A stretch of DNA of 64,000 bases, taken from contig JAGVVZ010000004.1 in the NCBI GenBank assembly GCA_018304545.1, positions 1-64,000 of the forward strand, read 5' to 3'. Position 1 is the first letter of the stretch. Every line of letters begins with the position of its first letter. Of the stretch, positions 15,663 to 21,684 are shown piece after piece. This DNA is from Candidatus Aenigmatarchaeota archaeon (GTDB taxonomy: Archaea > Aenigmatarchaeota > Aenigmatarchaeia > CG10238-14). Both the position numbers and the translations under genes were made by a program. Below the pieces are notes generated by a model. It had not been told where the DNA came from and searched no databases. It worked only from the letters and a program-made list of their open reading frames with translations.

Positions 15663-16601
15663 CTATAGTTTTTTGCAAAAATATTCTACAGTCTTATAAT
15701 AGTTATTGATTGCCAAAATAAGCAGTTTTCTTATAGTTTTTCTGTCCTTTCCAGATCTTAAATTCATCATATCCTCTATTACTGGTTTGCCGTTTTTTCT
15801 AATTACATCAGGAATTTTCATGTTAACCATATTTTTTAATTCGAGATATCTTTTATTCTGAAACATTTTGAAAGTTACCCATGTCATATTCAATCCTATA
15901 TATGCTAAAAACGCATCATCCAACACATGTTTTTTGTCCTTTTTTAGATCATTTAAAATTCCGTTTTCTGTATAGAATATTTTATTAGCATTTTCCAAGA
16001 CAACTTTATAATTTTCATAAAGCTGATTGTCAAATCCAAAGGCCATGACACGGGAGTTAGCCAGTATGTCTTTTATAAGTAGCGTCATTGTCGATCCTAC
16101 TCTTGTAAATGATACCAATAATCTTTCAATCGTAAACGGTTTTTTCGGTTTATGCCTGTCTAACAAATAAAAAATTCTGTCTGCAGCATTCTCCATCTCT
16201 TCATTCAGTATATCTTCTATTCCGTCTTGTTTATTCAACAAGTGCATCAGCTCATGGGCAAAAAGACCGGATATAGCTTGAATATTATTTGTCCGAAATA
16301 TTTCCTCATTCGCATTTAACATTATAATGGGCGATTTTCCTTTCTCCCAGTATGAAAAGTTAGGCTTGTTGCCGCATACCCATTCTCTCATCTCACCGTG
16401 TCTCTTTACTTTCAGCCTTTTTCCAGAGTTTAGAATTATTTTACAAACAGCAATAGGATTTGTTGTTACATAAACATCTAACTTCTTTAAACTCTTCACA
16501 TGCGCTCTCTCCTCAAATTCTCTTATGACATTAGAAATAGCAATCGATACGATGCCCTTTTGCTTACCCTTAATATCAATGTGTTTTATCACCTGGAGCA
16601 T
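15663..16601 (-). CDS. HExxH zinc peptidase-like protein
   Basis: This 312-aa protein carries FAHELMHLLNKQ at about residues 116-127, followed by EEMENAADRIFYLLD. That gives two zinc histidines, the catalytic Glu and a downstream acidic ligand, as in zincins. No signal peptide, so intracellular. The C-terminal half is helical with no known domain. The protein at 4309 has the same layout but HGISH instead of HELMH. Confidence 0.6.
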   Translation of the reverse strand: MLQVIKHIDIKGKQKGIVSIAISNVIREFEERAHVKSLKKLDVYVTTNPIAVCKIILNSGKRLKVKRHGEMREWVCGNKPNFSYWEKGKSPIIMLNANEEIFRTNNIQAISGLFAHELMHLLNKQDGIEDILNEEMENAADRIFYLLDRHKPKKPFTIERLLVSFTRVGSTMTLLIKDILANSRVMAFGFDNQLYENYKVVLENANKIFYTENGILNDLKKDKKHVLDDAFLAYIGLNMTWVTFKMFQNKRYLELKNMVNMKIPDVIRKNGKPVIEDMMNLRSGKDRKTIRKLLILAINNYYKTVEYFCKKL

Positions 16602-17318: not shown

Positions 17319-18026
17319 GTGAACCTGTTTGGAAAGAAAGAGAAGAAACGGATAGTAGGAATTGTGGGAGGGTTGGGACCAGAGACAACATCCCAATTTT
17401 ATTTAAAACTCATAGAACTAGCTAGAAAATATGATGACTCATACCCCTCTTTGATCATAGATAACGTGGCTTTTCCATTCCGTTTAGAAAGAGAAATAAT
17501 AATACACTCGAAAAACGAAGAGGAGATATTACCCTTCATAAAAGATTGCATTATTCGGCTAAACAAGGCAGGCGCAGATTATATAGTGATACCTTGCAAT
17601 ACTGTTCATGTTTTCATAGAAGATTTCAGAAAACTCTCGTCTGTTCCTGTTATTAGCATAGTCGAAGAATCTGTGAAGGATATAATTTCCCATGATTTTA
17701 AAAACGTAGGAATATTGGGCACGACAAAAACAATAGAGAGTGAAATTTATCAAAAGGAATTAAAAAGAAATGGAATAAAATTCACAATACCACCAACTAA
17801 GAGACAAAGAACGCTCTCTTCATTGATAGTAGATATACTTGAGGGTAAGAAAGATCCAGATTCAATAGATCTGATATGTAGTGAATTAATTTTACAGGGT
17901 TCTGATTGTCTCCTTCTTGCATGTACCGAGTTACAACTTGTAACATCCGAAATAGACTTTAATGTCAGTGTTTTGGATACAACAAATATTTTGATCAAAA
18001 AAACCTTTGAAATTTTGAAAGGATGA
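17319..18026 (+). CDS. Aspartate/glutamate racemase family protein
   Basis: This 235-aa protein has the family landmarks: GIVGGLGPETTSQFY at the N-terminus, the first catalytic cysteine in IPCNTVH (about 90), and the second in LACTELQL (about 205). PLP-independent racemases interconvert L and D forms of Asp/Glu using this Cys pair, so activity is plausible. Some members act on hydantoins or other amino acids. GTG 19 bases before GGxKKEKKR is the start. It is 3 nt after the HTH gene and 4 nt before the pseudo-synthetase gene. Confidence 0.85.
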   Translation: MNLFGKKEKKRIVGIVGGLGPETTSQFYLKLIELARKYDDSYPSLIIDNVAFPFRLEREIIIHSKNEEEILPFIKDCIIRLNKAGADYIVIPCNTVHVFIEDFRKLSSVPVISIVEESVKDIISHDFKNVGILGTTKTIESEIYQKELKRNGIKFTIPPTKRQRTLSSLIVDILEGKKDPDSIDLICSELILQGSDCLLLACTELQLVTSEIDFNVSVLDTTNILIKKTFEILKG

Positions 18027-18030
18027 TTGT

Positions 18031-19008
18031 ATGTCGAATTTTTTATATGGCTCAATACCATTAATGGCAGAAAAAATTAGCAGGTTACCATTAAGACCAG
18101 CAGAAGAATTACCCGATTTGTATAATGAAAGTTTAATTATTAGAAGAGGGCACTTAATAGGTTACATACCATTCCATCCAGATGCAACAATCCTTACCTG
18201 CATGTGTTTTGAAAGTGGTGGTATTGGGTTATCTGTTTACCCATCTTTAGAAATAGCAGATTCGTTGAAAAATATTCATCCTGTTAGATTTCTCATACCT
18301 ACATATGAATACAGAACCTACAGACTACTGCCAGATAAAGATATAAAAAGAAATGAAAGGGAAGCAAGAAAGTTACTTAATAACAGAGAATTTGAAGTAA
18401 TAGATGTTTCAGAAGAACCTTATATGTCTAGAAGATTGAAAATGTTTTCGAGAATATTGCCTTACATGAAATATGGAAATTCTCTAAATGCTTATCCTCT
18501 TGGAGATGGGTACCTTCAACTTGCATTAGGAGCTTTAGAAATATCAGATATCCTTCTATGCGTAGAAGATCATGGAAATACTGTTGTGGTGTCTGATGAA
18601 GGATGCGCTGGTCCTGTAATAACAGCTAAAAGAATTGCAAAATATTTTGGATACAAAAGTGAAAATTTAGGAGTATTAGCATACTGCGAAGCTGTGAGTT
18701 TGGATGAAGAAAGTACAATGTATGCTGCTAGTGAAACAAATAAACTTCATTTAATGAGTGATGATCCTGATAAAATAAAATATTCAATTACAACTGGCGG
18801 TAGAACAAAAGAAGAACATGCGTCACAAGGCGGTAAGCCATATCAATGTCCAGTACAAGTAGTGCATTCTATGATTGCATATAATGATGCGATACTCGCT
18901 ACTTGTGCTGAAGAATGTATGAAAGGCACTCTTGGATGTACAGATCATAAATCACTAGTTATGGAAGAGTATGGACTCTTTATGCGAGGAACGGAGAGAA
19001 GGCCATGA
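18031..19008 (+). CDS. Degenerate TrpRS-like protein
   Basis: This 325-aa protein matches class Ic tryptophanyl-tRNA synthetases in its C-terminal 100 residues: DDPDKIKYSITTGGRTKEEH, then GGKP, then a cysteine series C-x22-C-x6-C-x2-H. As I recall, Thermotoga TrpRS has C-x22-C-x6-C-x2-C binding a 4Fe-4S cluster; here the last ligand is His. The middle (DILLCVEDHGN, ITAKRIAKYFGY) resembles the class I nucleotide-binding region. No HIGH motif is visible, and the KMSKS position reads TMYAAS. It is probably not a normal synthetase; it may activate or bind an amino acid without charging tRNA. ATGA overlap with the amidase gene. Confidence 0.6.
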   Translation: MSNFLYGSIPLMAEKISRLPLRPAEELPDLYNESLIIRRGHLIGYIPFHPDATILTCMCFESGGIGLSVYPSLEIADSLKNIHPVRFLIPTYEYRTYRLLPDKDIKRNEREARKLLNNREFEVIDVSEEPYMSRRLKMFSRILPYMKYGNSLNAYPLGDGYLQLALGALEISDILLCVEDHGNTVVVSDEGCAGPVITAKRIAKYFGYKSENLGVLAYCEAVSLDEESTMYAASETNKLHLMSDDPDKIKYSITTGGRTKEEHASQGGKPYQCPVQVVHSMIAYNDAILATCAEECMKGTLGCTDHKSLVMEEYGLFMRGTERRP

Positions 19009-19871
19009 AAAAAATAGAAGAATTTAGTTATGCATTCGAAGAAAAAGAACCTGTAATTACTATAAACCCAGGTGAAATAATAAAGCTCAAAATAGAAGAC
19101 TGTTTTTCGGGAATGATTAAAAAGAAATCTGATTGGCCAAACGAGAAAATAATGGAATACGCTAATCCCTGTACGGGTCCTATTTATGTAAATGGGGCAG
19201 AGCCGGGAATGAGCTTATCCGTGGATGTATTAGATATAAAAGTAGGCCATAAAGGGACGAATATAGCAAAAGATTGGGGGATGCTCAATGGTCGTGTATA
19301 TGGAATAAAGATAATGAAGATTGAAAAAAAGAAGCTCGTACTCAACGACAAAATAAAAATACAACTAGATCCCATGATAGGATGTATAGGCACCGCACCG
19401 AAAAATCCTGTTTCAACACTAAAAGCGGGTTATTTTGGAGGTAACATGGACATAAATCTTGTTAGAAAAGGAAGCACCGTTCATTTACCCGTATTTGTTT
19501 CAGGTGGATTGCTATATATTGGAGATTTGCACGCATTGATGGGTGAGAGTGAACCCACGCTTTGTGCTATAGAAACTTATGGCGAGGTTTTAGTTAAAAT
19601 AAATCTGACCTCACAAAAGATTTTACGACCAAGAATAGAAACGGGAGAGGAATTTGTAACGGTTGCTATAGAAAAGAATATGGAAACTGCCACTAAGATT
19701 GCTGTAAATGATATGTTCGATTTTTTAGTATATGAAGTTGGCATTGATAAAATGGACGCTCATGTCTTGATAAGCGCGGCCTGTAATGTGAGATTGGGTG
19801 TACATGATGAAGTCGTGGCAATTGCTTTAATTAAGAGGGATATCATAAAAAATTATATAAGGAGTGATTAA
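19005..19871 (+). CDS. Acetamidase/formamidase family protein
   Basis: This 288-aa protein carries the FmdA/AmdA pattern: NPGEIIKLKIED, NPCTGPIYVNGAEPGM, the metal-site region GCIGTAP, GYFGGNMD, and LYIGDLHALMGESE. Family members hydrolyse formamide, acetamide or related primary amides to acid and ammonia; the substrate here is unknown. It overlaps the pseudo-synthetase gene by 4 nt and abuts the B3/B4 gene (TAAATG), so expression is coupled. Confidence 0.85.
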   Translation: MKKIEEFSYAFEEKEPVITINPGEIIKLKIEDCFSGMIKKKSDWPNEKIMEYANPCTGPIYVNGAEPGMSLSVDVLDIKVGHKGTNIAKDWGMLNGRVYGIKIMKIEKKKLVLNDKIKIQLDPMIGCIGTAPKNPVSTLKAGYFGGNMDINLVRKGSTVHLPVFVSGGLLYIGDLHALMGESEPTLCAIETYGEVLVKINLTSQKILRPRIETGEEFVTVAIEKNMETATKIAVNDMFDFLVYEVGIDKMDAHVLISAACNVRLGVHDEVVAIALIKRDIIKNYIRSD

Positions 19872-20540
19872 ATGCAGCTATCAATTAACCAAAATCTAAA
19901 GTCCTCCTATCCCGATTTAAAGGTTTCAGTTTTTGAAGCCAAAACAAAAAGCAAGTTGGAATTAAATCAGGATCTAATTACAAAGAAGAGAGAATTAGAA
20001 AAGATGATAAGAGAGAGCTATAAAGATACAGAAAGATTGGATAGAATAATAAAATATAACGCATTCTACAAAAAATTTGATTCCAAAGTACCCATGGAGT
20101 TTCAAATAAAATCTGTTATAGAAAACAAGGAAATCCCTCTTGTAAATTCTGTTGTCACTTGTATGTTTATGGCCGAATTGAAAAATATAATTTTAACGGC
20201 CGGCCATGATACGGGTAGACTTGGAGAAAAAATAAGAGTTTCTTGTTCAGATGGCACAGATGAGTATGTAAAAATAAATGGTAAACAGCAAAAACTAAAA
20301 AAAGGTGACATATTCGCTTCTGATAACAATGGAATAATATCTAGCGTATTTTATGGCCCAGACTTAAGAACAAAAATTACAGACGGAACAAAAAATTTTA
20401 TGTTTATGTGTTACTGCCCATTTAGTATATCAGATAACGAAATCAGAGGCCATATGCAAGATATCGTCGATTACTTGAAAATTTTGGGAGAGAACAAATT
20501 AGAGTTTGGCGATATTGAAGTTTTTAACGTAAAAAAATAA
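19872..20540 (+). CDS. B3/B4 tRNA-synthetase-like domain protein
   Basis: At 222 aa, the central part FYKKFDSKVPMEFQIKSVI, NSVVTCMFMAELK, TAGHDTGRL and FASDNNGIISSVFYGPD fits the stand-alone B3/B4 domain. That domain is related to the editing module of the PheRS beta subunit. The N-terminal 60 residues are helical. Family function is unsettled; hydrolysis of a mischarged or activated amino acid is the natural inference beside a synthetase-like protein. 16 nt before trpS. Confidence 0.8.
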   Translation: MQLSINQNLKSSYPDLKVSVFEAKTKSKLELNQDLITKKRELEKMIRESYKDTERLDRIIKYNAFYKKFDSKVPMEFQIKSVIENKEIPLVNSVVTCMFMAELKNIILTAGHDTGRLGEKIRVSCSDGTDEYVKINGKQQKLKKGDIFASDNNGIISSVFYGPDLRTKITDGTKNFMFMCYCPFSISDNEIRGHMQDIVDYLKILGENKLEFGDIEVFNVKK

Positions 20541-20556
20541 TAGTATAGATGATTAT

Positions 20557-21684
20557 ATGAGAGATAAATTTATTGTCACACCATGGGAAGTCAGAGGAAA
20601 TATAGACTACAGTAAATTAATAAAACAATTTGGTGTCCAACACCTTGACAATAAGCTATTAGAAAGAATGAAGAAACACACTGGAGAGGTGCATTATTTT
20701 TTAAGAAGGGGGATTTTCTTCGCTCATATGTACTTTGATGTAATTTTAAATGATTTAGAAAAAGGTAAGAAATTTTATTTGTATACTGGAAGAGCACCGT
20801 CAGGTCCTGTTCATATAGGTCATTTGATCCCGTGGATATTTACAAAATGGCTTCAGGATAAATTTAAAGCAACATTATTGTTTGAAATTCCAGACGAGGA
20901 AAAGTTTCTGTTCAAAGATAATTTTTCGATGGATGATGCTAAAAAATGGGCATATGAAAATATATTGGACATAATTGCTCTAGGTTTTGACCCGAAAAGA
21001 ACGAAGATATTCCTGAATACCGAGTACGCTAAGACTCTCTATAAAAACGCATGTTTTGTAGCGAAAAAAATTACTGTTTCGACTGCTAAATCAACATTCG
21101 GCTTTACAGACTCTAATAATATTGGAGAGTATTTTTACACATCCATGCAATCCGTCCCTGCATTTTTGCCAACAATTCTAGAGAAAAGGGAGACACACTG
21201 CTTAATTCCATGCGCGATAGATCAAGACGTTCACTTCAGATTAACGAGAGACGTTGCCATATCTTTAGGTTATCCAAAACCCGCAACGTTGCTTTGCAGA
21301 TTTCTGCCAGGTCTACAAGGCATAGAACATGAAGGCAAGATGTCGTCATCTGAATCACATACTGCAATTTTTACTACTGATGACCCCAAACAAGTGCATG
21401 ATAAAGTAATGAAGTATGCTTATTCTGGTGGCCAGGCAACTATAGAGGAACACAGGAAGAAAGGAGGAAACCCTGATGTAGATGTATCTTATCAATGGCT
21501 CACATTCTTCGAAGAGAATGACAAAAAACTAAAGAAAATACATGATGATTATAAATCCGGAAAACTGTTAACAGGAGAATTAAAACAGATACTGATAGAT
21601 AAACTAAACAAATTCTTAAAAGAACATCAGGCAAGGAGAGAAAAGGCAAGGAATGAAATTGAGAAATTCATGCTTAGAGATTGA
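20557..21684 (+). CDS. trpS: Tryptophanyl-tRNA synthetase
   Basis: This 375-aa archaeal/eukaryotic-type TrpRS begins with the conserved TPWEVRGNIDYSKLI. It has the class I HIGH motif in SGPVHIGHLIPW (about 80) and KMSSS in EGKMSSSESH. The C-terminal part has GGQATIEEHRKKGGNP, the intact counterpart of the segment in the degenerate paralogue at 18031. It charges tRNA-Trp. It follows the B3/B4 gene by 16 nt and may share its transcript. Confidence 0.95.
   Translation: MRDKFIVTPWEVRGNIDYSKLIKQFGVQHLDNKLLERMKKHTGEVHYFLRRGIFFAHMYFDVILNDLEKGKKFYLYTGRAPSGPVHIGHLIPWIFTKWLQDKFKATLLFEIPDEEKFLFKDNFSMDDAKKWAYENILDIIALGFDPKRTKIFLNTEYAKTLYKNACFVAKKITVSTAKSTFGFTDSNNIGEYFYTSMQSVPAFLPTILEKRETHCLIPCAIDQDVHFRLTRDVAISLGYPKPATLLCRFLPGLQGIEHEGKMSSSESHTAIFTTDDPKQVHDKVMKYAYSGGQATIEEHRKKGGNPDVDVSYQWLTFFEENDKKLKKIHDDYKSGKLLTGELKQILIDKLNKFLKEHQARREKARNEIEKFMLRD

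Follow-up and report, generated by a model that had tools for sequence, protein, structure and literature searches.

Tryptophanyl-tRNA synthetase (TrpRS) requires the HIGH and KMSKS motifs for adenylate formation, and its C-terminal domain reads the anticodon of tRNA-Trp. The enzyme of Thermotoga maritima carries a [4Fe-4S] motif, C-x22-C-x6-C-x2-C, within the anticodon-binding domain, and the wider form of this motif is C-x(21-24)-C-x6-C-x2-C (PMC2954223). Cyclodipeptide synthases, such as AlbC and NozA (TIGR04539/PF16715), are class Ic synthetase-like proteins without the ATP motifs, in which residues Y178 and E182 anchor the aminoacyl group (PMC5935735). Most known examples come from bacteria, with a few from eukaryotes, and an origin in TrpRS has been suggested for the Trp-specific members, in TyrRS for most of the rest (PMC4159871); a 2014 review knew of none in archaea. 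One cyclodipeptide pathway includes NozR, an isomerase of the Asp/Glu racemase family that turns cyclo-L-Trp-L-Trp into isomers with D-residues; mutants affected in its two cysteines no longer do so (PMC10156859). Other synthetase copies have also left canonical aminoacylation. SbzA, an IleRS-like copy, uses charged tRNA for a small molecule (PMC12945691), while the archaeal paralogues LeuRS-I (Sulfolobaceae) and LeuRS2 (Halobacteria) have lost or reduced aminoacylation and kept tRNA binding, LeuRS-I being an inactive paralogue (PMC9437257). Our literature searches found nothing on the module described below or on synthetase paralogues in Aenigmatarchaeota, and for cyclodipeptide synthases together with DPANN archaea only a general review.

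A probable TrpRS-derived protein in a five-gene run

The window, by which we mean the whole 64,000-nucleotide stretch of DNA analysed, comes from an archaeal genome of 0.96 Mb and contains a tight run of five plus-strand genes separated by 4, -4, 0 and 16 nt (Table 1). The racemase stop codon lies 4 nt upstream of the start of the gene under study (the target), and the ATG of the amidase-family gene overlaps the target's TGA as ATGA. Pfam and NCBIfam matches confirm the neighbours named in the original prediction. The genuine TrpRS at the end of the run has intact motifs (HIGH as HIGH, KMSKS as KMSSS) and is the sole TrpRS detected in the genome, where the search returned a single match. The amidase-family gene has no second copy across the phylum, and no typical product-tailoring or export genes adjoin the run.

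Table 1. Features of the window at and near the target gene
Feature	Position	Strand	Evidence
Metallopeptidase-like gene	15663..16601		
Asp/Glu-family amino-acid racemase	17319..18026	+	PF01177 E=2.4e-37; TIGR00035 above cut-off
Target: pseudo-synthetase of 325 aa, a degenerate paralogue of TrpRS	18031..19008	+	NF008927 E=5.4e-10; own profile 28.7 bits
Part of target homologous to TrpRS, residues 202-320	18634..18990	+	hmmsearch alignment
KMSKS position of target, TMYAAS, residues 229-234	18715..18732	+	profile alignment
C273-x22-C296-x6-C303-x2-H306 of target	18847..18948	+	pattern scan; PMC2954223
Acetamidase/formamidase-family protein	19005..19871	+	PF03069 E=2.3e-26; 3tkk E=1.2e-44
Stand-alone B3/4 domain protein, aminoacyl-tRNA editing-type	19872..20540	+	PF03483 E=3.5e-7
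Genuine TrpRS	20557..21684	+	NF008927 E=8e-161, above cut-off

The target is an intact, ATG-initiated frame, and the original prediction had called it a degenerate TrpRS paralogue on the strength of its C-terminal third. This likeness is borne out: seven NCBIfam TrpRS models match, the best of them (NF008927) over residues 222-321 only, at 38.9 bits compared with the 478 bits that mark the functional TrpRS family. Our own profile of archaeal TrpRS (45 rows, some of them duplicates) aligns with residues 202-320, which correspond to the end of the catalytic domain, the KMSKS loop and the anticodon-binding domain, and none of 2000 composition shuffles scored as well. Homology to TrpRS is demonstrable for this segment only. 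Although hhalign runs residues 25-324 along the TrpRS profile (pairwise E 2e-6), the confidence comes from the C-terminal part; residues 1-225 or 1-150 alone do no better than shuffles against TrpRS, TyrRS or F profiles (F is a family described below), and Pfam gives no match to the target. Because residues 1-200 have no significant match and AlphaFold reached a pLDDT of only 31 on a shallow alignment in which five TrpRS sequences accompanied the target, we infer the catalytic fold rather than observe it. By eye, the N-terminal part might be fitted to the synthetase order, with a strand, GIGL in place of HIGH, a second strand with a Glu and YPLGDGYLQLA as a candidate for the amino-acid-binding helix.

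Both ATP-binding signatures are lost. The profile alignment places TMYAAS at the KMSKS position, and HIGH is absent from the translation, as had been read earlier, with GIGL the best by-eye candidate only. The earlier suggestion of an amino-acid-activating protein is therefore unsupported, while a possible tRNA-dependent role, proposed alongside it, holds up. Judged by the homology of its anticodon-binding domain, the target is a TrpRS-derived paralogue, and with HIGH and KMSKS lost and the C-terminal domain kept, we predict a protein that binds tRNA-Trp and is unable to charge it.

The metal-ligand spacing of the target is exactly that of the Thermotoga motif with the last Cys changed to His, as the first reading had noted, and it also fits the wider Fe-S TrpRS pattern apart from this fourth ligand. 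The Cys motif occurs in 10 of the 45 TrpRS rows collected; the window's own TrpRS lacks it, and a Cys4 motif is visible in the aligned 3jxe TrpRS. The TrpRSs closest to the target come from other genomes and belong to the Cys-motif type (28-33% identity; the three most similar are those of G001, G043 and G050). The window TrpRS reaches only 24%, so the target did not arise recently from its neighbour, and we rejected an origin by duplication of the adjacent gene. The target thus appears to descend from, or at least resembles, the Cys-type TrpRS lineage, and its Cys3-His set is a putative equivalent of the [4Fe-4S] motif. It shares with the Thermotoga enzyme this spacing and the anticodon-binding domain (E 5e-10), and differs in the His ligand, the loss of HIGH and KMSKS and an unrecognisable N-terminal 200 residues.

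Searches for relatives of the target found none in some 530 DPANN genomes, among them 156 Aenigmatarchaeota genomes and two overlapping sets (371 and 236 genomes) drawn around other (Woesearchaeota) matches to family F, and none in a plasmid collection or in a close-relative scan that covered about 85,000 GTDB species genomes. One viral match (L006) was dismissed as chance, as 23 residues of a phage portal-like protein were matched.

A recurring pseudo-synthetase neighbourhood in DPANN archaea

The original prediction proposed a search for co-occurrence of the five genes. The complete set does not recur, since the target and the amidase are found in this genome only within the phylum, but linkages among the racemase, B3/4 and TrpRS genes do, and another pseudo-synthetase family, F, occupies the same slot in 26 DPANN genomes. 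These comprise 10 Aenigmatarchaeota and 16 further genomes, Woesearchaeota where named; a short G106 match with stop codons was excluded from the count. The founders of F are a 285-aa protein of G003 and its G087 relative, 32% identical. The best 50 PDB matches listed by Foldseek for an AlphaFold model of F (pLDDT 91.5, pTM 0.88) are archaeal-type TyrRS and engineered forms of them, plus a small number of other tyrosyl-tRNA synthetases, with E-values from 1.6e-9 to 2.6e-7 and TM-scores by query length of 0.56-0.72. The predicted fold of F is thus that of archaeal TyrRS. Like the target, F is without HIGH and KMSKS, and conserved or nearly so are Y-x-x-x-E, D-E-F and K-x-G-P-x-x-E-x-x-Y-D.

Profile matches and the frames read at each locus show an Asp/Glu-type racemase adjoining F in 16 of the 26 genomes (in G003, a protein designated X lies between). 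TrpRS shares the gene run with F in 13, across both phyla, and HisRS stands beside F in two (G123, G039). Three F-racemase loci (L083, L084, L089) have no adjoining synthetase. For a genome of about 1000 genes, we estimate the chance of lying within two genes of one given gene at ~0.4%, so that the F-TrpRS linkage is not accidental, with the reservation that related genomes are not independent. The window run (17319-21684) has the same context as these F loci, namely the racemase and/or TrpRS. This neighbourhood of pseudo-synthetase, racemase and TrpRS in DPANN archaea is the wider find, of which the window locus is an aberrant example. Direct homology between the target and F was sought and not found: hhalign and hmmsearch with shuffles detected no similarity, and the F profile does not match the target.

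Two further features of these loci may be recorded. In L122 (G123) and L123 (G039), a distant F relative is followed by a racemase and by HisRS in place of TrpRS. Protein X, of ~130 aa, recurs beside the racemase and F (L083:4609-5070, L085:1448-1897, L062:5717-6106, L061:8973-9341) and was not found in the window.

The window racemase contains both catalytic cysteines (PCNT, ACTE), and its closest solved structure is the aspartate racemase 1jfl (E=1.5e-34). It groups with the racemases of G078, G003, G008 and G010, with local supports of 0.82-0.99 and 41-44% alignment identity; the G039 racemase was left out of this grouping. The racemases of G078 and G003 adjoin F, and the G003 order is F, X, racemase, TrpRS. 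G008 has racemase, GNAT, a CxxCxxCC protein, X, a YbaK-type deacylase and TrpRS, and G010 has racemase, X, a YbaK-like protein and B3/4 fused to TrpRS; in both, the racemase is kept and no pseudo-synthetase was found. Relatives of the metallopeptidase-like gene of the window lie near the locus in G003, G004, G008 and G010, and these loci therefore look like one chromosomal site. Since the window racemase groups with F-adjoining racemases, the target occupies the F slot of a known locus. It is either an independent TrpRS-derived replacement of F or a protein diverged beyond recognition, and the match of its C-terminal domain to TrpRS favours the former.

The B3/4 protein and TrpRS are separate adjoining genes in the window, and a relative of this B3/4 protein is fused to TrpRS in G010 (E=6.9e-41). 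B3/4 was seen at the TrpRS N-terminus in open frames of 565-604 aa in L050:4602-6410 (G010), L051 (G119) and L052 (G137). Its presence in three genomes points to tRNA-Trp as the molecule on which B3/4 acts, irrespective of the role of the target. In sequences read from Aenigmatarchaeota, B3/4 is also fused to MetRS-like (L012, L014, L015, L018) and ArgRS-like (L017) proteins.

Possible roles of the target

The explanation we prefer, at a probability of roughly 0.35, is that the TrpRS-derived pseudo-synthetase diverts Trp-tRNA from the adjacent TrpRS to a non-ribosomal product, together with the racemase. Having lost ATP-dependent activation and kept its anticodon-binding domain, the target most likely would still bind tRNA-Trp, and the neighbouring TrpRS, the cell's only one, would supply the charged form. 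The target would then accept Trp-tRNA and hand its tryptophanyl group on to a non-ribosomal acceptor, in a reaction comparable to those of cyclodipeptide synthases and SbzA. A stereocentre, either of the product or of an amino acid used as substrate, would be inverted by the racemase in the way that NozR acts on cyclo-Trp-Trp. The amidase-family protein may modify the product or break it down, and the removal of wrongly charged tRNA-Trp would fall to the B3/4 protein, so that all would presumably share one pathway.

Consistent with such a transfer are the restriction of the target's TrpRS homology to the tRNA-recognition half, a metal motif kept with one Cys-to-His change, the tight operon with its ATGA overlap, the recurrence of F with racemase and TrpRS in two phyla, and a window racemase of the lineage that adjoins F in G003 and G078. 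The Y-x-x-x-E of F has the cyclodipeptide synthase spacing, and one F member has a sub-threshold profile match to TIGR04539 (E=4e-4). Here the parallels with NozA/NozR, SbzA and the cyclodipeptide synthases are analogies. A racemase-family operon partner recalls NozA with NozR, and the window racemase shares with NozR and the aspartate racemases a family sequence match and the two cysteines; its closest solved structures are those of aspartate racemases. The suggested origins of cyclodipeptide synthases in TrpRS and TyrRS may likewise parallel the two pseudo-synthetases. In contrast to cyclodipeptide synthases, both pseudo-synthetases retain a synthetase domain at the C-terminus, and the target matches neither PF16715 nor TIGR04539 in Pfam and NCBIfam. 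SbzA keeps HYGH and AMSKA motifs and IleRS architecture, which the target does not, and LeuRS-I and LeuRS2, to which the target may be likened, derive from a different synthetase and have no racemase linkage reported in the review (PMC9437257). Against the transfer reading, F does not conserve the Ser that is catalytic in cyclodipeptide synthases: the position of AlbC S37, placed by eye, is variable in F and not Ser (in the target it is not placeable). The likeness of the racemase to aspartate racemase, the G008 and G010 loci with a racemase and no pseudo-synthetase, the lack of adjoining product-tailoring or export genes, the unmatched first 200 residues of the target and the low pLDDT of its model also count against it. 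As no sequence similarity was detected between them, the target and F may do different things.

The missing Ser in F and the nearness of the racemase to aspartate racemases make accessory and editing roles serious rivals. It is possible, though on balance somewhat unlikely, that the target dimerises with TrpRS, or senses uncharged tRNA-Trp or tryptophan, and in this way modulates either TrpRS or the racemase. Dimers are the working form of class Ic synthetases, and HisZ, a HisRS-like subunit that serves HisG, is a model for an accessory role of this kind, as is the inactive LeuRS-I of the Sulfolobaceae. The linkage to an essential TrpRS in 13 F genomes and the window would fit, as would the two HisRS-linked loci, where the link is to a synthetase and not to biosynthetic genes, and inactive archaeal synthetase paralogues bind tRNA and affect growth (PMC9437257). 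What such a role leaves unexplained is the racemase, the commonest partner of F, which also occurs at the three synthetase-free loci. Rather unlikely is quality control of tRNA-Trp, in which the target would be a tRNA-Trp-binding adaptor that presents tRNA mischarged with D-Trp, Tyr or another amino acid to B3/4 for hydrolysis, while the racemase would remove the wrong amino acid or keep it in balance. The TrpRS fusions of B3/4 in G010, G119 and G137, its position beside TrpRS in the window and the YbaK-type aminoacyl-tRNA deacylase that G008 and G010 carry at this locus speak for editing. However, F is absent from precisely these two YbaK loci, no B3/4 or YbaK gene was seen in the F loci read, TrpRS editing activity is not established here, and a racemase would be an odd partner.

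Finally, the target could be a decaying or lineage-specific gene without conserved function, an improbable reading that draws on the lack of relatives in the Aenigmatarchaeota, Woesearchaeota-region and species-wide searches and on the very low similarity to any TrpRS. Against decay stand the 325 uninterrupted codons, a synonymous codon usage that fits local genes best in the annotated frame (the differences are small), the four-base spacing from the racemase, the overlap with the next gene and the preserved metal-ligand spacing.

Returning to the diversion of Trp-tRNA, the racemase-TrpRS slot of the target hints at an undescribed use of Trp-tRNA outside protein synthesis. Genomes of about 1 Mb keep few dispensable genes, yet two phyla keep pseudo-synthetases tied to racemase and TrpRS. 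If these proteins do divert charged tRNA, DPANN archaea would have a metabolite pathway that depends on tRNA, and synthetases would twice have turned into other enzymes, a natural experiment in how such a change comes about. The broadest version, that disabled synthetases (F from TyrRS, the target independently from TrpRS) work with a racemase to pass Trp or His from charged tRNA into a D-amino-acid small molecule across DPANN, we regard as rather doubtful. The module is compact and lends itself to direct tests on purified proteins.

Other diverged proteins also appear at loci of this type. Second TrpRS-like proteins of 455-477 aa, with HFGH and KASSS-type motifs kept, adjoin both F-like proteins and a normal TrpRS in L113:4521-5885, L114:3597-5027 and L115:4791-6170, and in L076:2202-3308 (G059) an F-like protein is followed by a HisC-like aminotransferase instead of a racemase.
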